In this document: piece by piece, positions 1,410 through 22,745 of the stretch
Layout: every line of letters begins with the position of its first letter
Position numbering within the stretch: the stretch's first letter is position 1
DNA from: a virus
DNA: 23,720 nt
IMG/VR virus record: IMGVR_UViG_3300034980_000795
Coordinates: 1-23,720 of that record
Strand: one strand, 5' to 3'
Made by a program: the position numbers and the translations under genes
The notes under the pieces: model-generated
What the model saw: only the letters and a program-made list of their open reading frames with translations
Database searches by the model: none
What the model was told of the DNA's origin: nothing

Positions 1410-4400
1410 CTAGGCGGCCAGTTGAAGCTGCGCGCCCGCGCCAATTCCTCGTCCAAATGACGCGCTCATCTGATAAACGACAATATTGATATTTGATGGT
1501 ACGCTTCCAAAATCATCCACTAGCTGTGCTGACGGATAGGTCACCATCTCAGATTTTGAAGTCAGTGTTCGAAGCACAACCGCGCCATTCAGGATGTCAA
1601 TTTCATAGGCTTCGGTATCTTCACTAAGTGGCACTTCTGACAAACTCCAACCATCACCACCGATCCGCGTGCGTCGAATCCAATGGATCAAGAGATCACC
1701 GGTGCCATTCGTTTCAGCTCCGACTTGAACAGGCGACAGTGGCCGCAGCCCTTTACCAAGAAACGCTAGGCGATCACTTGCCGCATAGGCCGGATCGGTG
1801 ATCACTGTACCTTCGGGCCCATAGCGCCAATTTAGCTCAAGCCCCAATTCGTCAAGGCTGACCTCGAGAGGCACGACCGCACTCGACAGCAGCACAAACC
1901 TTGCGCCCGCTGCGATAGGAGATTGCATGGCATGCTCGGTGCCGTGTTGCCCTCGCAAGAGCCTGGTCAATTTATAGTGTCCGGGAGAGATCAACTCGGC
2001 ATCGACAAACGAAACCAGCTCAATTTCCCCAACGCCATTGATCACGGCCGCGAGGTTTGAACCCGCGAGGATTTCGGCATCAGACTTCGATGACAATGTG
2101 CCATCGTATAAATCAACCCAAAGCTCATTGCCGTCATCCCAACGCCCGGCCGGTCCCTCGTAAAGATCAAAGGCCAGCACACCAATTTTCGCGGCTTGCG
2201 AAAGGCTCTGTTGCAATACGAAGCCTGATTGAGATTGGCTTTTCCAAAACTGAATTGCGCCCGGCCAAGGCGAGGAATATGCCGCCACATACGGCCGGTG
2301 CAAATCTGTTGTAGCGGCAAGAATCGGCCCATCCAGGAACACCACTTCAGGCGGACCATAAACCACAGGAGCAAGCATAAACGAAGCACGACTTGTGCCA
2401 TTATTCGGAGTGTAAAGCGCAGCGTCATAGCCCGCGAGTTCAACCGGCCTGGCACCCGCGTCGCGCGTTGAAACGACCAGGAAGTCTCGCGAGTATCCAC
2501 CCAGTGTCAGGTCGACAACATCGGTCGCTTCAATTGCAATCATCGAGGGAGCCAGCGCTATGCTCATGCGCTCACGGGCGCGCCATTGTTCCATCAGCCA
2601 GGATTGAGCGATCGCCGAAGCCTGGCCTGAATCGATTGAGAGATTGAATGCGCGGGTCGTAACCCGCTTGGAGAGCCCCGCTTGCCTTTGAGCTTCAACG
2701 GTCAGGTTTCCATAATCATCATCACCATCAACAAAGGTGAAGCGCGCCATCATTGGCAATTCTGTTTCCTGCCCCCGCGTTGCTTCCCAGTCGGACGAGT
2801 TCCCATCCAAAGCAACCACATCATCTTCAGTCAAAGAAATTGCCGCGTCCTGTCCGCGATGCACAAATTTGATCTCAGCGCCGCTTTCAACAGCGTCGAA
2901 ATTAAAGGCCAGCATTAGCGGTTCCAGGCTGGCTCGCACGCTCTCAACGTCATTGATGATGTAACCATTCACGACCCCGTTTAAATTGACGACATTGAGA
3001 TCAATGAAGTCGGCAGAGGCCGCAATTTCCGTCACGATTGCGGCCAGATCGCCGCGCCCCATCCTTCCGGTGATCCAGTGACCCAGTGACCAATTCTCGC
3101 CATCGCTCCAAACGTCAAGCCGATTAGGGAAATCGGGATAAGGCCTTGCATCCCAGGCCCAGATATAGACGCGGTTAACATCGATCATCGGCGCGGCATA
3201 AACGGATGATGTCGGATTATTGCCGCTGGCAACCTCGAAATACGTCAATGACGCTTCGATGAATCGCCTCTGCATCAGATCGTCACGATTGCCTCTCGAG
3301 TAGAATGGTACCGCGCTCTCTGAAGACTTCGGATCAACAAACACATTGGGCTGGTTAGCCCCCTTGTCGACAGATGGACAGCCGATCTCCGTGAACCAGA
3401 TCGGCTTTGATTGCGCGATCCAACTTGTCGGCGATCCATTCTTCACACCAGACGGCCGATCATGGTGCGCGTTGAGCCACCAGTTTTTGATATCCTTGTA
3501 TCGAAAAACCCAGGGTTCACTATAGGCACCATCGGTTATCGTGGTTCGCGCTTGAGCGTCGCGAGCGGCTTCGCTGGCATAATACCAATCATAACCCTCA
3601 CCGCCCTCGATATTCGATTGCAGATAGCCGCGATCATAAATCGAATCCCAACCGCTCAACGCGTCAATGTGGCCTGCGCCATCGCGCCAATCTGAAAGCG
3701 GCATGTAATTATCAATGCCGATAAAATCGGTGTTCGCATCTGACCAAAGCGGATCAAGATGAAAGAAGACATCGCCGGAACCATCGGCCGGATGATGGCC
3801 GAAATATTCAGACCAGTCAGCCGCGTAAGACAAATTGACCGACGCCCCAACTATCGCGCGCACATCAGCCAGCAATGTGATCAGTGCGGCAACAGCCGGG
3901 TAAGCGCCGGTGTTGTCTCGAATTTGTGTCAGCCCGCGCATTTCAGATGCGATCAAGAATGTGTCGACGCCACCCGCCGCCACGCACAGTTTTGCATAGT
4001 GAAGAATGAAGCGGCGAAAGCCCCAATCAGCGCCGCCCGTCCAGGACACAACTTCACCGTTGACGGAAAAGTCCGCCGCTACGGCAGAGCCGAAAAAGCT
4101 TGTGACTTGCGTGGCTGCAGCGGCGGTCTTGTCGGCTGTTCCCGCTTGTCCGGCCGCAGGCATGCAGGTGATGCGACCGCGCCAAGGAAAGGCTGATTGC
4201 TCAACGCCGCCATAGGGATCGGTCAAGGCATTGCCGGTTGGAACGTCCATCAAAATGAATGGGTAAAACGTGACGACATAGCCGCGAGCCTTTAGCTCCT
4301 GGATCGCCGCAACAACACAACCATCCGAAGGTGTTCCGCCATAAACCGCCTTGCCGTCAGCATCGACCGACATGAGGTGCGCGTTCGCACGATCGACAGC

Positions 4401-5330
4401 ATTTACAAGCCAGGTTTCGGGCGATGTAGTCTTGCTCAAAAGCTCAACCCCAGGCCTAAACTCGATGTTGCCGCATCGCAGGTCATCACCGAACCAGGTC
4501 ACGACCAGGGCGACATTGCCAACGCCCGGCAATTCATCACCGAGCTGATCCAGGGCCACCAGCATGTCAGGCTTACCATGCAATGAGTGAATGGTTTCCG
4601 GCGCAACACGGCCAGGCCCTAACTCTTGAATGATGACTTGATCGGAATAGACGAATTCTCCCGAAGCCGGAATGAGATCAACGGCCTTAATCAGACTTTC
4701 GGCCTTGTCACTTCCGCCCGCGCTTTTGATAATCTCAACATTGATTTGCGGAATTCTATTTCCAAACTCTTCAAGCTCAAGGTCTTCAAAAACGATATAG
4801 GCAAGGCCGCGATATGCCGGAACATAATCGCCACCTTCAATAGATACGATGAGAGGATCGGGCTCTTGTGTCTCGTCACCTTTATAAACCCGGTAGGTGA
4901 CATTTTGGAGATCAAACGGCTGACCATCAGCCCATAAACGACCGATGCCGTCGATCACACCTTCGCAAAGCCCTATCGCGAAGCTGGCAGAATACAGATA
5001 GCTAGTCGTGGTAGCACCGCCGCCACCGCCGCCCTTGCCGCCGCCTTGGGTTTCCGTGACCTGGCGCTCGCGAAAGTTGGTTGCCCAAATACATTGCCCG
5101 CCGACACGCATCCGCCCGAACAAGCGCGGAATGCTGGCCCCTTCTGTCGACGCCAGCGCATGCAGGTTTTCTAGGCGCGCTCCATAGGCACGTTGCTCTG
5201 TGCCAAAAAGCGCATTGTCGATCGCAGAACCAGCCAAGGCCGCACCGGCGTTTAGGACCGACTGCATCAGGACATTATTCATGCCGCTTGTTGCGGCTTG
5301 AGAAGCAATGGTTAGAGCGATTTGGGCCAT
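1410..5330 (-). CDS. Large tail tip / host-specificity protein, GTA gp15-like, with TIM-barrel-like domain
   Basis: A 1306-residue protein matching the architecture of the GTA ORFG15 tail protein, which forms the distal tail tip and contacts or degrades the host surface. The N-terminal part (residues 1-90) begins with a short hydrophobic alanine-rich region. A glycine run lies at about 96-105. A phage-tail domain spans about 110-420. A glycoside-hydrolase-like TIM barrel covers about 430-740, with ASEMRGL near 461, FIGIDNYMPLSDW near 536-548 and PIWFTEIGCP near 643-652 (Glu648 is a candidate catalytic acid). The C-terminal half is beta-rich and ends in a typical phage tail/Rcc01698-like region. 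The start ATG at 5330 overlaps the NlpC/P60 gene by 19 bases, and no good Shine-Dalgarno is visible, so translational coupling is likely. It is the last gene before a terminator. Length is close to that of GTA homologues. Confidence 0.9.
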   Translation of the reverse strand: MAQIALTIASQAATSGMNNVLMQSVLNAGAALAGSAIDNALFGTEQRAYGARLENLHALASTEGASIPRLFGRMRVGGQCIWATNFRERQVTETQGGGKGGGGGGATTTSYLYSASFAIGLCEGVIDGIGRLWADGQPFDLQNVTYRVYKGDETQEPDPLIVSIEGGDYVPAYRGLAYIVFEDLELEEFGNRIPQINVEIIKSAGGSDKAESLIKAVDLIPASGEFVYSDQVIIQELGPGRVAPETIHSLHGKPDMLVALDQLGDELPGVGNVALVVTWFGDDLRCGNIEFRPGVELLSKTTSPETWLVNAVDRANAHLMSVDADGKAVYGGTPSDGCVVAAIQELKARGYVVTFYPFILMDVPTGNALTDPYGGVEQSAFPWRGRITCMPAAGQAGTADKTAAAATQVTSFFGSAVAADFSVNGEVVSWTGGADWGFRRFILHYAKLCVAAGGVDTFLIASEMRGLTQIRDNTGAYPAVAALITLLADVRAIVGASVNLSYAADWSEYFGHHPADGSGDVFFHLDPLWSDANTDFIGIDNYMPLSDWRDGAGHIDALSGWDSIYDRGYLQSNIEGGEGYDWYYASEAARDAQARTTITDGAYSEPWVFRYKDIKNWWLNAHHDRPSGVKNGSPTSWIAQSKPIWFTEIGCPSVDKGANQPNVFVDPKSSESAVPFYSRGNRDDLMQRRFIEASLTYFEVASGNNPTSSVYAAPMIDVNRVYIWAWDARPYPDFPNRLDVWSDGENWSLGHWITGRMGRGDLAAIVTEIAASADFIDLNVVNLNGVVNGYIINDVESVRASLEPLMLAFNFDAVESGAEIKFVHRGQDAAISLTEDDVVALDGNSSDWEATRGQETELPMMARFTFVDGDDDYGNLTVEAQRQAGLSKRVTTRAFNLSIDSGQASAIAQSWLMEQWRARERMSIALAPSMIAIEATDVVDLTLGGYSRDFLVVSTRDAGARPVELAGYDAALYTPNNGTSRASFMLAPVVYGPPEVVFLDGPILAATTDLHRPYVAAYSSPWPGAIQFWKSQSQSGFVLQQSLSQAAKIGVLAFDLYEGPAGRWDDGNELWVDLYDGTLSSKSDAEILAGSNLAAVINGVGEIELVSFVDAELISPGHYKLTRLLRGQHGTEHAMQSPIAAGARFVLLSSAVVPLEVSLDELGLELNWRYGPEGTVITDPAYAASDRLAFLGKGLRPLSPVQVGAETNGTGDLLIHWIRRTRIGGDGWSLSEVPLSEDTEAYEIDILNGAVVLRTLTSKSEMVTYPSAQLVDDFGSVPSNINIVVYQMSASFGRGIGAGAQLQLAA

Positions 5331-5791
5331 GAGTCAGGAAACCTATAAGCGAACGCTGTTCGCGCCTTGAGCGCACGATCAAGCTTTCGGCGCGCTACGC
5401 CGCCTATTTCTCGTGCATCGATTATTTGCCCGTCGCGCCACGGCTTACCGGGTTTGCTGGTCGGACATTCCAAGATGGCGATATGCTTTGCAGGCGGCCG
5501 GCGCATCATCGCGAACAAAAACAAGTCGCCGGCAATAGCCTCTTCAATGGGCACAGCCGTAAATACTTTCGCCAAGCCTTCGGAGAATTGCTCTTTGCCT
5601 TCGACTTCGTTCCAGTCGCGCGTATATCGCGGCAAGGCCTGTGCAGGGAGTCCGTACACATCGCTAATGATCCCACAGATCAAGCCGAGACAATCGGCCC
5701 CTACACCTCTCCTGGAGGCTCGGTGATGATACGGCGTCTGGAGCCATTTGTTCGCGGCGGTCAAAACGCTGAGCCGCATCGCCGAACTCAT
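5312..5791 (-). CDS. NlpC/P60 family tail peptidase, GTA gp14-like
   Basis: A 159-residue cysteine peptidase of the phage/GTA NlpC/P60 type, a tail-associated enzyme that opens peptidoglycan during DNA entry. The catalytic Cys is in GADCLGL (Cys34), and the His is in AKHIAIL (His103). The ATG at 5791 is chosen because it overlaps the stop of the DUF2793 gene as ATGA. The same frame runs open further upstream to 5944, but those residues duplicate DUF2793 coding sequence and look non-coding. Its place between the DUF2163 hub and the ORFG15-like tip protein is the standard GTA order, apart from the inserted DUF2793 gene. The 3' end overlaps the next gene by 19 bases. Confidence 0.88.
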   Translation of the reverse strand: MSSAMRLSVLTAANKWLQTPYHHRASRRGVGADCLGLICGIISDVYGLPAQALPRYTRDWNEVEGKEQFSEGLAKVFTAVPIEEAIAGDLFLFAMMRRPPAKHIAILECPTSKPGKPWRDGQIIDAREIGGVARRKLDRALKARTAFAYRFPDSWPKSL

Positions 5792-6525
5792 GATTGCGGA
5801 ACCGTTGGCATGTAGTAGCAAATCGCGATGCGAACCGATCCGTCCGTGAAGTTGCCGCCGCTCGCCGTCAAACGGATTGGCGTGTCGGCGTAGAACGCAG
5901 TCGGGCCGATGACGCCAAGATTGACCCCATTCAGGCCAGACCAAAGACCCGAGCCAAACTTGGAGACCTGCGATGCGGTGCCGACGCTAAAGCTCGAAGC
6001 CCCGGTGATCGCCAAAGTCACACGCTCGGACACGTTGAAGACGATGGCCCCATTCGGAATTTGAATTGATGAATCCACATAGGCCCCGGACAGGCCCGTC
6101 AACTCCTCTTCGACAACTTTCAGCTCGAGAGCCGCGCCGTTGGCGCTGGTAAGCTTGAAGGCCTTGAACGTTTCAAACAGCTCACTTTCAAGCTCCCAAG
6201 CAGAACCCGTCCAGACAACGAAATCGGATTCATCCGCGACGAAAAAGCGCCAACCATTGCCAGGCGTAATAAATTGCCAGGAGCCATCGCGATAATACGC
6301 CAGATGCAAATCCGTTTCGCTGCCCCATTCGGTGCCGGTCTTGCCCGCTGGCATGATGTAGAGAACACCGTCGACAGGCGAACCAGGCTCGGCACTTGTT
6401 GACCTGGACGCCGCATCACCTTGAATCAGACCATCAAGCAAACGCAGCGCATCATTGACCGTGACATGCTTTTGAGATTGGGAAGCCGAGAGATAGGTGA
6501 GTCCCAAATTTGCTGATGTCGTCAT
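5788..6525 (-). CDS. DUF2793 tail protein, probable tail fibre or receptor-binding component
   Basis: A 245-residue protein with the DUF2793 signature at its N-terminus: LGLTYLSASQSQKHVTVNDALR near residues 7-28, then a beta-rich GTEWGSE...LAYYRDGSW region. The C-terminal 90 residues, ending CYYMPTVPQS, are beta-rich and low in charge, as in short fibre or receptor-binding domains. The start is set at ATG 6525, because AGGAG lies 8 bases upstream. A TTG at 6531 would leave only about 2 bases of spacing. The gene sits between the DUF2163 hub and NlpC/P60 genes, where the classical GTA cluster has no gene. DUF2793 proteins are known as phage or GTA-associated tail proteins in alphaproteobacteria. 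A host-recognition role is inference. Confidence 0.85.
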   Translation of the reverse strand: MTTSANLGLTYLSASQSQKHVTVNDALRLLDGLIQGDAASRSTSAEPGSPVDGVLYIMPAGKTGTEWGSETDLHLAYYRDGSWQFITPGNGWRFFVADESDFVVWTGSAWELESELFETFKAFKLTSANGAALELKVVEEELTGLSGAYVDSSIQIPNGAIVFNVSERVTLAITGASSFSVGTASQVSKFGSGLWSGLNGVNLGVIGPTAFYADTPIRLTASGGNFTDGSVRIAICYYMPTVPQS

Positions 6526-6536
6526 GCTCAACTCTC

Positions 6537-7463
6537 CTATTCTTCAAAGTAGACATCGCCGCCATCGCCGCGACCGTGCCGAGAGCCACCCGAATTGGCG
6601 TTCTTGCGCTTGGCGATTTGTGTCATCGTTGCATCGCCAGGCATCAGCACAGCATGCCCACGAAAATTATTGATGTTGGAGAAGCGAACGCCGCACGTTA
6701 CGAGCTGCTTGTCGCAACCGGCCGTGAGAGTGAACGTGTCGAAGACAGCTATCTGATCGGGCGGGCGATCCCACAGCTCGAGCGAGACGACGCCACCGAG
6801 ACTTGAATGAGATCGAACATCAAAGCGACGGCCGGAATTTGTCCCGCTGGTGAATGTCAAAAGCCCGAATGTGAAGACCGCATCAGAAAAACCAGAAAGA
6901 CCGCTTGCTGTAAAAATTCGCTCATTCTCCAGCGTAGAAATTGCCCCGGTTCCCGCGTGCGCCGCATCGGTGAGATCAATGCCGCATTTGGCATCGCCAA
7001 GCACCGCGCCGCATGTCGGTAAATATTGTTGCCCAACGGGTTGATTGAGCCGCGCCGATAAGCCGCGCACTTCGGCTTCAAATCCGATTGGCCCGCGGCG
7101 AACCTCGCCGAGGTTTCCCTTGATCATTTGGACGAAAAGGGTTGGTTCTTCCCAGTCGACCCGCCAAATTTCAATTTCCGCATCATCGTACCGGCCAGCC
7201 TGAATATCCGACTCCTTGATGCGAAAGGAGGAGAGCGCGCCGAAAACTTCCAGGTTATCGGTTGCCAAACCGAGCGAGCCCTTGATCTCACTGGCTGTCA
7301 AACCGGTTTGCGGGCTGAATTTTATTCCTTCTACGAACAGAACTTGGTCATGATCGGTAAAACCCATCACTTCGCCATCGGACAGGGAGATTTTGAAGCA
7401 CCAGCACAAATTTGCTGTGCCGGCCTCCAGCTTTGATCGAAGTGGAAGCGGAACATACCTCAT
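6537..7463 (-). CDS. DUF2163 / BR0599-family tail hub protein, GTA gp13-like
   Basis: A 308-residue protein of the GTA ORFG13 family, which forms the baseplate hub under the distal tail protein. The N-terminal DUF2163 region (about 15-165) includes MGFTDHDQ and ASEIKGSLGL. The C-terminal phage_BR0599 region carries four cysteines: Cys151 (LPTCGA), Cys160 (AKCGI), Cys250 (AGCDK) and Cys257 (VTCGVRF). In siphovirus and GTA hub proteins such cysteines hold a 4Fe-4S cluster. All four are kept, so a cluster is expected here too. The ATG overlaps the stop of the DUF2460 gene by 4 bases (ATGA). The C-terminal tail is Gly/Arg/Asn-rich (about 286-303). Confidence 0.92.
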   Translation of the reverse strand: MRYVPLPLRSKLEAGTANLCWCFKISLSDGEVMGFTDHDQVLFVEGIKFSPQTGLTASEIKGSLGLATDNLEVFGALSSFRIKESDIQAGRYDDAEIEIWRVDWEEPTLFVQMIKGNLGEVRRGPIGFEAEVRGLSARLNQPVGQQYLPTCGAVLGDAKCGIDLTDAAHAGTGAISTLENERIFTASGLSGFSDAVFTFGLLTFTSGTNSGRRFDVRSHSSLGGVVSLELWDRPPDQIAVFDTFTLTAGCDKQLVTCGVRFSNINNFRGHAVLMPGDATMTQIAKRKNANSGGSRHGRGDGGDVYFEE

Positions 7464-8101
7464 TCACCAACCACCTCCACAAGTGAGATGTCGGGATACG
7501 CCCCCAAGCTACCCGTCTGCAAATTGGCGGGAAGATGGTCCGCGTCGAATCGGACCGGTACATCAAATTCAAATCCGGCACTGACCAACTCACCTTGCGC
7601 AGGCACTGATCCAGGCAAGAATGTGACCGCGCCAGACAACGCGTCGATTGAGAAATCGGAACCAATCGTTTTCTCAACACCAGCAACTGCTACCCGCACG
7701 CTTGCTGGTATCGGCTTGGTGATCGGGCGGTTCCAGGATGCGCTGCCTGAAGTATAGAGTTTTGTCAGATAGAAACAGGTCAGCACTCCGTCCCCAAAAC
7801 CTACTTCTTGATCCTCGGGGCTGATCGGTTCGAGTGATCCACAGGATTTAAAATCGGCCCAATCCTTGAAGCGAAACCCGTACCGGCGACCTCGTCGAGC
7901 ATTGAAGAACGCTGTCACTAATTCAAGTTCGTCAAGCTGATGAATGCCATAGCCAATATCGTAACGCTGCCTGGCATTTGCCCAAGGCGAATTGCGTTCC
8001 TCGCGACCACTGGCTAGCGCAACAATCTCGGTGCGCCATTGAGGTCCCCCCTTGGCATTAAGGGCTATATCGACGGGAAATCGTACGTCATGAAAGGTCA
8101 T
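7460..8101 (-). CDS. DUF2460 distal tail protein, GTA gp12-like
   Basis: A 213-residue protein of the DUF2460/TIGR02217 family, the distal tail ring that joins the tube to the hub. Characteristic motifs are FPVDIALNAKGGPQW near the N-terminus, GREERNSPWANAR (33-45) and FFNARRGRRYGFRFKDWADF (65-84), with GYEFDVPVRFD-like residues near the C-terminus. The ATG at 8101 comes 3 bases after the stop of the tape measure gene, so translation is coupled. The next gene overlaps by 4 bases. Length and position match GTA homologues. Confidence 0.93.
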   Translation of the reverse strand: MTFHDVRFPVDIALNAKGGPQWRTEIVALASGREERNSPWANARQRYDIGYGIHQLDELELVTAFFNARRGRRYGFRFKDWADFKSCGSLEPISPEDQEVGFGDGVLTCFYLTKLYTSGSASWNRPITKPIPASVRVAVAGVEKTIGSDFSIDALSGAVTFLPGSVPAQGELVSAGFEFDVPVRFDADHLPANLQTGSLGAYPDISLVEVVGE

Positions 8102-12840: not shown

Positions 12841-13155
12841 TTATACGCCCGAACTGGACCGCTTAATCCATGCCTTAAATGCCGAGTTTGTATGCTGAAC
12901 CATATTCTCGTCACCTAATATTTTCACCCGCTCCTGCTGTTCGCGTTTGGTGAATAGGCTGTCTAGTTGCACCAGCCGCTTTGATCTGGAAAACGCCTCC
13001 CCATACCAACCCGATACAATCGCATTATCTCGGCGCTCCTGACGAATTCGAACAAACGCAAAAACCGACTGCCTGGACGCGTATGGCGTCAGTTTCCAGA
13101 AGGCCTCCCAACCAAGCGGGCAAGCTTCAAGAAAGGCTGCCAGGTCGTGTGCCAC
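12841..13155 (-). CDS. Tail assembly chaperone, downstream (T-like) component
   Basis: The frame runs from a GTG at 13155 to TAA at 12841, 104 codons. Motifs such as LGWEAFWKLTP (residues 14-24) and GWYGEAFSR...KRLVQLDSLF (48-69) resemble the small GTA/phage tail assembly chaperones that follow the tube gene. It overlaps the upstream chaperone by 67 bases in the -1 frame, and no Shine-Dalgarno precedes the GTG. It is therefore probably made, at least in part, as a frameshifted extension of the upstream protein, as with lambda G/GT. The true N-terminus is uncertain. It is the last gene before the accessory cassette interrupts the usual chaperone-tape measure junction. Confidence 0.7.
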   Translation of the reverse strand: MAHDLAAFLEACPLGWEAFWKLTPYASRQSVFAFVRIRQERRDNAIVSGWYGEAFSRSKRLVQLDSLFTKREQQERVKILGDENMVQHTNSAFKAWIKRSSSGV

Positions 13156-13487
13156 AAGGTCGCCAGTGCGCCGATCAGCTTTGGGCGCTCCTTCTCCTCC
13201 TCAGCGGCTATCTCTTCACCCCCAAACCATGCCCTGGCCCAGGCATCAGCCACTGCGGCTCTGGCCAGATCTACGGGTGGTGAAGTGTCGAGGACATGGT
13301 CACAGGACAGCGAACTGGCTGAAGCGATCAAGAAGGCCAGATCACCGAGGACCGGCGTGTTGATCGCCGCACTCATACGATCATCAAAGTCTTCACCCCA
13401 ATCGCTGCGAAGCTGATCAATCACCTGCCAGGTAAATTGAAGGCGATAGGTTTCGCCCTCAATCTCTATTGAACCGCAATCACGCAT
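13089..13487 (-). CDS. Tail assembly chaperone, upstream (G-like) component
   Basis: A 132-residue protein placed between the tail tube and the tape measure, the position of tail assembly chaperones that hold the tape measure before tube polymerisation. It begins with a beta-rich segment (SIEIEGETYRLQFTWQVIDQL) and continues with an alpha-helical region. The ATG overlaps the tube gene's stop by 1 base. Its 3' end overlaps the next chaperone frame by 67 bases in the -1 frame. The sequence is of the general GTA ORFG10/gene-transfer-agent-family type, but the assignment rests mainly on position. Confidence 0.72.
   Translation of the reverse strand: MRDCGSIEIEGETYRLQFTWQVIDQLRSDWGEDFDDRMSAAINTPVLGDLAFLIASASSLSCDHVLDTSPPVDLARAAVADAWARAWFGGEEIAAEEEKERPKLIGALATLWHTTWQPFLKLARLVGRPSGN
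13092..13098 (-). promoter_or_regulatory. Candidate -1 frameshift slippery site at the chaperone junction
   Basis: The transcript reads T GGA AAC immediately before the TGA stop of the upstream chaperone. It approximates the X XXY YYZ pattern: the YYZ part is AAC after AA, while the first triplet matches only partly. A stop codon directly after the site could favour slipping. I looked for a canonical heptamer elsewhere in the 67-base overlap and found none. Confidence 0.3.
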
Positions 13488-15954: not shown

Positions 15955-16902
15955 TTAGATGCCGTCCAGATACCGCATCTCTCGCGGTAGCCGCACATCC
16001 AGACCGCCCAGTCGCAAGATACCAGGCACTTCCCAAGTCGTTGGACCTGACTGCCACAAAGGCAAGAACTGGAAGGGCAATGGCATGTGCAAGGTAAGCA
16101 CTTCAGGAGAGCGACGATACGCCACCAGTCGGGCCACAGAGCCCTGCCCGGCCGTTTCCAAACCTCGAACGCCGCGGATGGTCAAAGGAAGCCCCGTCTC
16201 CATCGTGTAGGCGTTCTTTTCCACCACGAAGTCCAAAATGGTCTTGTCTGAATTTGTATGAAGCAGACGCTGACCAATATCGTGAAGCTGGGTGTAGGGC
16301 ACCAAAATGGTGTCCGCCAACGCCGTGGTATTGGTATCGGTGAAGATACCTGAAAGCACAGCATTGATATCGGCCAGGACATTTTGAGGCGTCTTGGTCG
16401 ACCATTCAGTCGCAGAACCGGTTCCTGTCGCAGCTGCATCACCATCAGTAACGGTGGCAGTGTTGACCAGGCCGGACATGCCCTTTGAAGCATCGCCAAA
16501 GAGCGCGATATTGTCTGTGAATTCCTCAGCAACACGGCGCGCGGCCATGCCCTTTGAAGCGGACAGGTTTTGACCCAATAGCTGAGCCTGGCCCACCTCC
16601 TGAATATCAAACCCAAAGCCGATACCCGCCATCGAGACTGTGGTCTCAAACTTGTCCCTGGTGATGTCAGCGTGGGGAATATCGCTGGCAGCGCCATTGA
16701 TCCAGGCGGCTTTACCGACATGGTCCATGGAGAAGTAGGTGATTGAAGGGACCCACGGATGGGCGGAGGTATCAACCGGGATCAAGGAGGGATAACGGAT
16801 CGCTGGATAGCGCGCCTTATAGACCTCGGTTTCGATATGAGACGCCTGTGAGATCATGAAGGCATGAGCTGACTGGGCGTCATAGTTTGGCATGTTGAGC
16901 AT
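15955..16902 (-). CDS. Major capsid protein, DUF2184 family (HK97-like fold expected)
   Basis: A 315-residue protein that I assign to the DUF2184 capsid family. Features are the N-terminal helix AHAFMISQASHIETEVYKARYPA (12-34), the segment HPWVPSITYFSMDHVGKAAWING (49-71), FGFDIQEVGQAQLLGQNL (97-114) and the C-terminal GPTTWEVPGILRLGGLDVRLP. The start is ATG 16902 because AAAGGA lies 6-7 bases upstream and the gap from the cement gene is then 13 bases. The same frame continues upstream to 17007, but that part overlaps the cement gene and looks non-coding. It lies directly after the protease/scaffold and cement genes, and a hairpin follows. Confidence 0.85.
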   Translation of the reverse strand: MLNMPNYDAQSAHAFMISQASHIETEVYKARYPAIRYPSLIPVDTSAHPWVPSITYFSMDHVGKAAWINGAASDIPHADITRDKFETTVSMAGIGFGFDIQEVGQAQLLGQNLSASKGMAARRVAEEFTDNIALFGDASKGMSGLVNTATVTDGDAAATGTGSATEWSTKTPQNVLADINAVLSGIFTDTNTTALADTILVPYTQLHDIGQRLLHTNSDKTILDFVVEKNAYTMETGLPLTIRGVRGLETAGQGSVARLVAYRRSPEVLTLHMPLPFQFLPLWQSGPTTWEVPGILRLGGLDVRLPREMRYLDGI

Positions 16903-16915
16903 GAGGTATCCTTTC

Positions 16916-17365
16916 TTATGCCAGACGAAGCACGCACAGCGCGCCTGAGGCGGCCGAGGTGTCGAAGATTGCGCCATCGATTGCGACATTGCCGGCAGCG
17001 ACCACATTGGTCAGTGCCCCTGTCGCCTCTACAAATAGAGCGGGTTCACCGGCAACGACTGTCGCACCAGCAAGTACCCAGACCGGGCCCTTGGTGATCA
17101 CGGCGACGTTGTCGTACTGGGCGTATTGATCGACGTTGTTTGGACGAACAGTCTTGTCCATCAACGTGATCCCGCGAAATGCCTTGCCGGCTTCAGAGAC
17201 ACGCACTTCATCATCGCCCACGCCTTGAACAGCAACGACACCAAAGCCGATACCCGCCGCCGTTTCGCAAATACGCGAGATGACCGTTGAAGGCTCAGAG
17301 CTTGCGATCATGCCGGCAACAGCGCTGACAGCTTGATCCAGATATGAGGTTTGAACGCTTGGCAT
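16916..17365 (-). CDS. Capsid cement / decoration protein, putative
   Basis: A 149-residue Ala/Val/Gly-rich protein, mostly beta-strand by appearance: GFGVVAVQGVGDDEVRV, GPVWVLAGATVVAGEPALFVE and VAAGNVAIDGAIFDT. It lies between the protease/scaffold and the major capsid genes, where many alphaproteobacterial phages encode a structural cement (Gp24-like) protein that stabilises the expanded head. GAGGG sits 7 bases before the ATG at 17365. The role is inferred from position and composition. Confidence 0.7.
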   Translation of the reverse strand: MPSVQTSYLDQAVSAVAGMIASSEPSTVISRICETAAGIGFGVVAVQGVGDDEVRVSEAGKAFRGITLMDKTVRPNNVDQYAQYDNVAVITKGPVWVLAGATVVAGEPALFVEATGALTNVVAAGNVAIDGAIFDTSAASGALCVLRLA

Positions 17366-17368
17366 GAT

Positions 17369-17944
17369 CTAACCCTCCTGGCTGTGGGCTTGGCTCATCC
17401 AGGCGTTTGAATTGCGATCCATCATGGCCTTGTGGGCCGCAACGGCTGCGCTCTCGCCTGTATCGCTGGTTTGGATGGTTTGACCGGAGACGACTTGTTT
17501 GACCGGATCGGCTTGGACCGCACCATCCTTGGCGAGATGATCAAACAAGCCGGTGACGTAATCATCGGACTTACCGTCGATGGTCTCGTCACCCAATTTG
17601 GCGATCACCGCACCGCGGCGGATTGCGACAAGCTCAAGGCCGTCGGTTTGGAGATCCTTGGCGATGAGTTTGGCCCGGGCGATGACGTCGGAGCGGTCTT
17701 TGACCATGCTATCAAGGGCGGACACATCAAGCTGCTCTGCTTTGAGCGTGGCGATCTGGGCATCCTTGGCACCCAACTCACCATCCTTTTGAGCGATCGA
17801 GGCAGTATGAACCTCGTTTGCAGATTTGAGCGCATCATTGGCCTCAATAAGCTGGCCTTGCAGCTTTTCGACGGCCTGGGCGCCCTGATCGGTGGTTTGA
17901 ATCGTAAGACCGTCAACGACGATTTCACGGAGCTTGTCAGACAT
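17369..17944 (-). CDS. Nested capsid scaffold protein from an internal start within the protease gene
   Basis: An in-frame ATG at 17944 would give a 191-residue protein equal to the C-terminal half of the DUF2213 protein. It is preceded by a perfect GGAGGT with 6 bases of spacing, stronger than the site used by the full-length gene. The encoded segment is a probable long helix (EKLQGQLIEANDALKSANEVH, SIAQKDGELGAKDAQIATLKAEQLDVSAL) typical of scaffolds, with an acidic C-terminal part and a short ending NSNAWMSQAHSQEG. This is the arrangement known for lambda C/Nu3, where the protease and scaffold share a reading frame. The scaffold role is inference from composition and position. Confidence 0.7.
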   Translation of the reverse strand: MSDKLREIVVDGLTIQTTDQGAQAVEKLQGQLIEANDALKSANEVHTASIAQKDGELGAKDAQIATLKAEQLDVSALDSMVKDRSDVIARAKLIAKDLQTDGLELVAIRRGAVIAKLGDETIDGKSDDYVTGLFDHLAKDGAVQADPVKQVVSGQTIQTSDTGESAAVAAHKAMMDRNSNAWMSQAHSQEG

Positions 17945-18559
17945 GAGCTGACCTCCTTGTTGATCGGGCGCAGTTAAGTTGGAACCAGCATCGACGGCGC
18001 GCCCGTCGCCGATACGGCATTGGTGTCCTGCGCGGCCGCGAGAGACGACTGCGAGGTGGTTGGCTTTGATGTTTCGCTGAACGGCGTCGTAGGGCTCGCC
18101 TTGATCTGTCTGACCCGGCGTCCAATCGATGTCGCAGGTGTAGCCAGCTGAGAGCTCTTGCTTGCCAGCCCGAACCTTCTCGATGACGTCCTGATCCATC
18201 AATGTGAGAGGCACACGGACGTAGCGAACATCGCCATCCTTTTCTTCGAGCACCTCATCACCGGTGGAGCCGACACTGACGCGTTTCCAATTGTCCGCTG
18301 AGACCATTTCTGGCGGGTGATCATCGGTCATCGGGCGGTGAGCAAAGGACCTCATGGTCGCGTCCGAGAAGACTTCATCACGCGGGCGATAGACGCGAAT
18401 GACATCGCTATGCCCCTCACCCATTTCCGAACCGAGATACTCCTGGATCCCCGTTCGAGCGATCCGGGCCTGACCAACCAGATAGCCGTCAGAGGTTATA
18501 CGAACGCCCTCCAGAACCACGCGATCGCGGAACCGGGCGTCTTTGGTGACAGAGGTCAT
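17369..18559 (-). CDS. DUF2213 prohead protease fused to scaffold domain
   Basis: A 396-residue protein. Residues 1-190 form the DUF2213 protease domain: RVVLEGVRITSDGYLVGQ, FAHRPMTDDHPPEMVS (His81 near its middle), GKQELSAGYTCDID (Ser137) and NIKANHLAVVSRGRAG (His168). These are the candidate catalytic His/Ser residues. Residues 206-396 form a helical scaffold region, also made separately from an internal start. The ATG at 18559 has AAAGG 7 bases upstream. The frame extends to 18658 but that part crosses a hairpin and the end of the upstream gene. The protease processes the scaffold and capsid proteins during head maturation. Most head morphogenesis genes of this phage are packed directly downstream. 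Confidence 0.85.
   Translation of the reverse strand: MTSVTKDARFRDRVVLEGVRITSDGYLVGQARIARTGIQEYLGSEMGEGHSDVIRVYRPRDEVFSDATMRSFAHRPMTDDHPPEMVSADNWKRVSVGSTGDEVLEEKDGDVRYVRVPLTLMDQDVIEKVRAGKQELSAGYTCDIDWTPGQTDQGEPYDAVQRNIKANHLAVVSRGRAGHQCRIGDGRAVDAGSNLTAPDQQGGQLMSDKLREIVVDGLTIQTTDQGAQAVEKLQGQLIEANDALKSANEVHTASIAQKDGELGAKDAQIATLKAEQLDVSALDSMVKDRSDVIARAKLIAKDLQTDGLELVAIRRGAVIAKLGDETIDGKSDDYVTGLFDHLAKDGAVQADPVKQVVSGQTIQTSDTGESAAVAAHKAMMDRNSNAWMSQAHSQEG
17951..17956 (-). promoter_or_regulatory. Internal Shine-Dalgarno GGAGGT for the nested scaffold start
   Basis: GGAGGT on the coding strand lies 6 bases before the in-frame ATG at 17944, inside the protease gene. Its match to the anti-Shine-Dalgarno is the best among the minus-strand genes here, and supports high-level independent initiation. 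Confidence 0.75.
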
Positions 18560-18615: not shown

Positions 18616-19413
18616 TTAAATCGGCGATCCAATCACCGCTCTGGCCTTGCACCGACACCTGATCTCATGGCCTGGATGCCCGGTTCGTTTTGGAGGTCTG
18701 GCCCAGGAGAACCGCTTTGAGTTATTGGCCCGGTGCGTATCGCGCTCACGCCCATCAAGATTGGTCTTCCAGTCGTAATGCGTCAGGCCGGCTTGTTGAT
18801 GTCGGACATGATCAAGCGACGAGCTGAACGATCCCAGCTGGTCACGGGCAATCAACCTCGCCCGTGCAGGCGCAAACCTAAATTGCTCTCTGAGCACCCT
18901 TGCTAACGCCATAGAGCTCATACCCTCGCCATAAGCCGTCCAGATCGCGCTCTGAACGCGCTTGGCCAGTTCCGCTGACAATCCTTCAATCAGAGCGACA
19001 TTGCGCTCCAAGGCCGCCTTGAGCATCGGTGCGACATCAGCCCGGCTCATGAGAGGCAAGATGTCCAATCGGACAGTGCCAACGACATTCGCAGCGAACC
19101 GCTCACGATGCCAAAGCTCCAGATCGTTCAACCAGCGATCAATCCTGGGCACTGTCTGGCCGACAACAACCTCACTATCACGAAGCGCGACTTGCAAAGC
19201 CGCTTCAATCGCCATCGGCGAAGCGGCTGATTGAGACGACCGCACTGCACTGATCAGACTTTCACGAACTGATCTGCGCCAGCCTGCAACAATGGTTGCT
19301 ACGATTGCGGTCAGGCTTTTCTCCTGAGCCTGAGTGTTCACGATTGCCGGCAGGACCGCGGTTGAGACCAGCCCGGAAGCTGATGCCATCCGCGGCAGAT
19401 CATAATCGCTCAT
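18616..19413 (-). CDS. Mu F-like minor head protein (SPP1 gp7 family)
   Basis: A 265-residue protein of the phage Mu F / SPP1 gp7 head morphogenesis family, a minor head component associated with the portal. The C-terminal domain shows LIARDQLGSFSSSLDHVR (about 188-205), THYDWKTNLDGRERDTHR and the family ending GHPGHEIRCRCKA (about 243-255), with a Cys pair CRC. The N-terminal part is a long helical region. The ATG at 19413 overlaps the portal stop by 1 base. Confidence 0.9.
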   Translation of the reverse strand: MSDYDLPRMASASGLVSTAVLPAIVNTQAQEKSLTAIVATIVAGWRRSVRESLISAVRSSQSAASPMAIEAALQVALRDSEVVVGQTVPRIDRWLNDLELWHRERFAANVVGTVRLDILPLMSRADVAPMLKAALERNVALIEGLSAELAKRVQSAIWTAYGEGMSSMALARVLREQFRFAPARARLIARDQLGSFSSSLDHVRHQQAGLTHYDWKTNLDGRERDTHRANNSKRFSWARPPKRTGHPGHEIRCRCKARAVIGSPI

Positions 19414-22535: not shown

Positions 22536-22745
22536 ATGTCAGGATGGATAGTCACTAAAACCGAAGGTGATTTTATAGAAACTTGGGCGGCAGCGGTTAG
22601 CGACAAGGAAGACGCAACAGCTGCCGTTGCTGAAGCGGACCCCCAACCTATGGCTAGAACAAGCTACGAGCCAACAAGAGCAGTGTCTCAAAAAGAGCTG
22701 ACCGCGTGGAGCGTTTCAAGTGGGTGCGTCAAGCGAATTCAATAA
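22536..22745 (+). CDS. Small divergent protein of unknown function
   Basis: A 69-residue protein, the only convincing plus-strand gene. AGGAG lies 8 bases before the ATG. The sequence (SGWIVTKTEGDFIETW, then an Ala/Asp-rich stretch and a Ser/Thr-rich C-terminus) belongs to no family I recognise. No membrane segment or DNA-binding motif is visible. It is transcribed away from TerS and is followed by a terminator at 22892-22928. It may be a prophage regulatory or accessory gene or a host gene beside the structural block. Confidence 0.6.
   Translation: MSGWIVTKTEGDFIETWAAAVSDKEDATAAVAEADPQPMARTSYEPTRAVSQKELTAWSVSSGCVKRIQ

Follow-up and report, generated by a model that had tools for sequence, protein, structure and literature searches.

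In phage lambda, the 3′ portion of the protease gene C also encodes, in frame and from an internal start, the scaffold Nu3, the protease gpC itself being of the ClpP/S49 type. Phage Mu carries a similar arrangement in I/Z, a protease gene with an in-frame internal scaffold start, and herpesviruses, whose proteases use a Ser-His-His set, make their scaffold alone from a separate nested transcript. An interaction between lambda C and Nu3 has been described (PMC3224144). In Pseudomonas phage Pa193, gp24 residues 286-326 were resolved as a helical hairpin bound inside the fivefold capsid vertices; the authors regarded gp24 as a putative scaffold, could not tell whether or not it is cleaved, and in their preprint mention neither a protease nor an internal start (PMC11042391).

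The locus examined here lies on an IMG/VR virus fragment of 23,720 bases, referred to below in its entirety as the window. Its head gene cluster, on the minus strand, comprises the small and large terminase, portal, a Mu F-like protein, a DUF2213 protein, a cement protein and the major capsid protein. We find that the DUF2213 gene very probably gives rise to two proteins, a full-length protease-scaffold and an abundant scaffold alone, the latter from an internal start. The relevant features are as follows.

18616..19413, minus strand: phage Mu F-like head protein, upstream of the DUF2213 gene in the head cluster
17369..18559, minus strand: full-length DUF2213 head-maturation protease and scaffold fusion, 396 aa, with an ATG start and a weak Shine-Dalgarno sequence (AAGG)
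18005..18499, minus strand: DUF2213 protease domain (residues 21-185), predicted by profile and model to have a T4 gp21/herpesvirus assemblin-like fold
18317..18319, minus strand: His81, an invariant alignment column, candidate catalytic residue
18149..18151, minus strand: Ser137, an invariant alignment column, candidate nucleophile (ELSAGY motif)
18056..18058, minus strand: His168, an invariant alignment column (NH motif), candidate third triad residue
17945..18004, minus strand: linker, residues 186-205, disordered in the model and variable in sequence and length among relatives
17951..17958, minus strand: internal Shine-Dalgarno AAGGAGGT, perfect, with a spacing of 6 to the ATG
17942..17944, minus strand: internal start codon ATG (Met206), codon 206 of 396, in frame with the DUF2213 gene
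17369..17944, minus strand: nested scaffold ORF, 191 aa, in frame and with the same stop codon as the full gene
17738..17890, minus strand: 51-residue helix (residues 224-274) of the scaffold domain in the AlphaFold2 model
16916..17365, minus strand: capsid cement/decoration protein of the E217 gp24/Pam3 gp6 family, by homology
15955..16905, minus strand: major capsid protein, Pam3-like, aligned from residue 11

The stop codon of the DUF2213 gene ends at 17369, and its start is most likely the ATG at 18559 rather than the GTG at 18658 that opens the longest ORF, because the homologues begin within a few residues of that ATG. The original prediction had placed an in-frame ATG at 17944 inside this gene, preceded at 6 bases by GGAGGT and opening a 191-residue helical scaffold; the ATG, the spacing, the product length and a helical domain in the model are all borne out, whereas the Shine-Dalgarno (SD) sequence proved longer than quoted, with 8 nt rather than 6 (AAGGAGGT). 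The gene thus contains an internal in-frame start with a ribosome-binding site and a stop codon in common with the full-length frame. AGGAGG-N7-ATG occurs a single time in the window, both strands counted together, with 0.12 occurrences expected by chance. Predicted SD pairing in this window is -12.6 kcal/mol at the internal site versus -3.2 kcal/mol at the full-length start, where the SD match is 4 nt long.

The protease half is readily recognized. It matches PF09979 (DUF2213) at 186 bits against a curated cut-off of 22, and the head maturation protease family phrog_530 matches over residues 7-391 (E = 4e-98). The AlphaFold2 model, built with 70 relatives (mean pLDDT 86.7), contains a confident N-terminal domain at about residues 20-185. 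This domain superimposes on the T4 prohead protease gp21 (Z 11.2, 130 residues, 2.7 Å) and on the herpesvirus assemblins (pseudorabies pUL26N, Z 9.1, 118 residues, 3.0 Å; cytomegalovirus, Z about 7.3), a match that comes from realignment of Foldseek's list, with the top two above unrelated rows, Foldseek alone giving the protease model no match at E ≤ 0.001. H81, S137 and H168 are invariant in 81 sequences, and the equivalent H/S/H residues are invariant in three divergent groups (A5, A6 and A7). Judged by its modelled fold and conserved Ser/His residues, the domain appears to be a prohead protease of the herpes assemblin/T4 gp21 type, with predicted proteolytic activity. As had been proposed, no part of the catalytic region reaches the internal start: the DUF2213 domain stops at residue 185, and the fold and all three invariant residues precede Met206.

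Beyond the protease domain, pLDDT falls below 50 at residues 188-191 and 196-206 of the AlphaFold2 model, and the chain then resumes with a beta-hairpin (211-222), followed by the 51-residue helix and further helices. Modelled alone, the 191-residue product keeps this form, with a mean pLDDT of 90.7. Compared with solved structures, the scaffold model alone reached a best Z of 4.8 and matched no solved scaffold; among viral models, its best matches are mostly other DUF2213-type proteins. Through its DUF2213 part, the family profile does match (E = 1.5e-19) chain G of PDB 9b40, the Pseudomonas phage Pa193 protein annotated as ‘gp24 Scaffolding protein’. A PB1-like homologue (L188) has an internal SD-ATG at about residue 195 in Pa193 gp24 numbering; therefore, the density assigned to Pa193 gp24 residues 286-326 falls within the nested product. 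By analogy with Pa193 gp24, and from the helical model, the C-terminal half is probably the scaffold in this phage as well.

The alignment of the major capsid protein to its Pam3 counterpart begins at residue 11, too early for a long fused scaffold (delta) domain to fit in front of it. Its longest ORF (15955-17007) overlaps the cement gene, and homology favors the later start at 16905, giving 316 aa. Elsewhere in the window, the tail-tip genes at 1410-8101 carry domains of gene-transfer-agent type (GTA_TIM, Rcc01698_C, DUF2460 and phiJL001 Gp84-like); this tail tip together with a Pam3-like head cluster suggests that the phage is a mosaic, perhaps one that infects an alphaproteobacterium. Between the genes for the tail tube and the tape measure, where a frameshifted pair of tail assembly chaperones of the G/GT type is usually encoded, two ORFs overlap in different frames (12841-13155 and 13089-13487). 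On the plus strand, opposite to the structural genes, a region otherwise lacking long ORFs contains a small ORF (22536-22745, about 69 aa) whose ATG is preceded by AGGAG.

The original prediction would have been undermined had the internal SD and ATG not been conserved in DUF2213 homologues. We gathered relatives from phage records, IMG/VR and prokaryote genomes, and removal of those above 75% identity left 82 non-redundant sequences. An in-frame ATG lies between the protease and scaffold domains in all 82, and 81 of them have an SD of at least 4 nt at a spacing of 4-10 nt, compared with 67 of the 428 in-frame ATGs found elsewhere in these genes. At a threshold of at least 5 nt, the counts are 67/82 versus 19/428. 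When only genes with exactly one linker ATG are considered, a restriction that removes best-of-several bias, the SD is present in 52 of 53 (Fisher p = 4e-35 against control ATGs), a comparison in which the control is imperfect since the relatives, being related sequences, are not fully independent samples. In many relatives the internal SD is only 4-5 nt long, and it is stronger than that of the full-length start in 43 of 80, so that this is no family rule and is clear only in the window. Pam3 gp5 has AAGGAG-N6-ATG at its codon 191, and the internal site is also present in Synechococcus phage Ssp-JY40.

The nucleotides around the start behave differently from the residues they encode. Linker residues are unconserved except for Met206, which is nearly invariant, and the SD is spelled by different residues in different relatives, for example Lys-Glu (AAG GAG), Glu-Arg (GAA AGG) or Gly-Gly (GGA GGC), in all three reading frames. 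Within the SD zone, Arg is encoded by AGG in 12 of 27 cases, against 4% gene-wide, and Gly by GGA in 19 of 38, against 9%. Synonymous recoding retains an SD of at least 5 nt in 50%, whereas 82% is observed, and when the eight codons upstream are shuffled synonymously, the pairing predicted with the anti-SD becomes weaker (energy z = -5). In 75 of the 82 genes, the RNA is less structured around the internal ATG than over the gene on average. The internal ATG follows the end of the protease by as few as 3 or as many as 99 codons, and still the SD-ATG keeps its place at the N-terminus of the scaffold. The longest distance belongs to a relative (L001:504-1940) with an insertion between the two domains, where 99 residues separate the IGD motif from the internal Met and AAGGAG-ATG still adjoins the scaffold. 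Given the variable residues and length of the linker, the rare AGG and GGA codons and the weaker mRNA structure, we conclude that it is the start site, rather than the protein sequence, that is under selection.

In the mechanism that we infer, translation from the ATG at 18559 would yield the 396-aa protease-linker-scaffold fusion, while independent initiation of ribosomes at the internal AAGGAGGT-ATG (17958-17942) would yield the 191-aa helical scaffold alone. In this window, the short scaffold would be expected in excess over the fusion, with many scaffolds per protease, because the internal SD is far stronger than that of the full-length start. Through the C-terminal helical domain that both products have, a minority of molecules carrying the protease could assemble together with the scaffold in the prohead core, where the protease would later cut the scaffold and the N-terminus of the major capsid protein.

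A different route to a free scaffold would be self-cleavage within the linker, with the SD-like sequence a by-product of a Lys/Glu/Gly-rich composition. Prohead proteases generally cut linkers; the model shows this one as disordered, and in many relatives K, E and G abound in it. Cleavage of the major capsid protein is moreover documented in T1-like phages (PMC11447400). However, Met206 is nearly invariant beside linker residues that are unconserved, AGG and GGA codons are enriched, the shuffle result is z = -5, and release from one fusion per scaffold would force a 1:1 ratio. We therefore regard cleavage as the sole source of the scaffold as very unlikely, although it may take place in addition to internal initiation. 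It is less credible still, to the point of being highly improbable, that the internal SD initiates nothing and instead makes ribosomes pause, so that the protease domain can fold ahead of scaffold synthesis. The SD does sit exactly between the two domains. A pause, however, has no need of a start codon, yet an ATG at SD spacing is present in every one of the 82 relatives, and the reduced RNA structure around it fits initiation.

Somewhat easier to entertain, while still unlikely, is that both products are made and that the short one is not an assembly scaffold, being instead, for example, a permanent minor capsid or pilot protein. This reading draws on the persistence of a Pa193 gp24 fragment in the mature virion (PMC11042391) and on the failure of the helical domain to match a solved scaffold. 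Against it stand the position of the gene directly before the cement and major capsid protein genes, a major capsid protein without a delta domain, the long-helix architecture, and the attached protease, which is of the herpes/T4 prohead class. Internal initiation that produces a separate scaffold thus remains our preferred explanation.

The site extends to more distant DUF2213 genes. It is found in 24 of 26 scorable representatives of the T1-like group, in all 18 ZF40/Jedunavirus/Vibrio group members with an ATG in the zone, and in 38 of 39 of the PB1-like group, counts for which the best of sometimes several ATGs was taken and against which 21-27% of control ATGs carry a similar SD. Three sampled genes of Chaseviridae (L184, L192 and L194) have no usable internal ATG with an SD; therefore, the site is not obligatory. 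Natural gene fission into separate protease and scaffold genes was also considered: in three candidates (L171, L173 and L345) the protease has no intact scaffold to match it, and these, which resemble degraded or rearranged prophages, were left out. We think it probable that an old internal start, kept by selection, is common to the DUF2213 genes of several major tailed-phage lineages (Pam3/Rhizobium-type, T1-like, Jedunavirus/ZF40 and PB1-like) and yields a separate scaffold. This would be the phage equivalent of herpesvirus UL26/UL26.5, with the same protease fold, and would account for the scaffold that has been reported as unidentified in XM1-type phages. The suggested link to XM1 is one of family membership only; a search for its DUF2213 gene by way of its cement protein gave no PDB match to the Vibrio query, and XM1 was absent among the phage matches listed.

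Relatives of the DUF2213 gene occur in more than 1,900 phage records, including Klebsiella, Escherichia and Pseudomonas phages, and mostly bear the annotation of a single protein (‘head maturation protease’, ‘major head subunit precursor’ or ‘hypothetical’). No separate scaffold gene is annotated beside a match to the scaffold region among the matches listed. Our literature searches, which covered few subscription papers, found no earlier report of an internal start in DUF2213 proteases. In two lineages with the second start, scaffolds have been left unidentified or unexplained in published structures. For such phages, a conserved nested start would provide a direct and testable answer, and it would correct annotation across the family.

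Among individual homologues, Pam3 gp5, an annotated head scaffold, is related over its full length (47% identical) and has the same gene order; it is annotated as one 377-aa scaffold, with the nested start unannotated. Pa193 gp24 (PDB 9b40) is a DUF2213 homologue whose C-terminal part, located at the inside of the fivefold vertices, has been described as a putative scaffold, and whose scaffold region is longer than that of the window gene and diverged. In kind, the arrangement is already known from lambda C/Nu3, Mu I/Z and herpesvirus UL26/UL26.5. The parallel with lambda that had been drawn originally stands as to organization, a nested in-frame scaffold, which is all that is compared, and as to the difference in protease family; the likeness to Mu I/Z is again one of arrangement, with a different protease family. 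By its modelled fold, however, the DUF2213 protease domain is of the herpes assemblin/T4 gp21 type rather than the ClpP/S49 type of gpC, which places the gene closest to herpesviruses and T4, not to lambda. With UL26/UL26.5 it has in common the protease fold, a conserved Ser-His-His pattern, the fusion of protease to scaffold and, as we infer for the DUF2213 gene, a scaffold also made alone with the same C-terminus. Where herpesviruses rely on a nested transcript, the DUF2213 gene has an internal bacterial ribosome-binding site. Taken together, these likenesses strengthen the link between phage and herpesvirus capsid maturation, with the same protease fold and the same coupling to the scaffold, and a different route to the second product.
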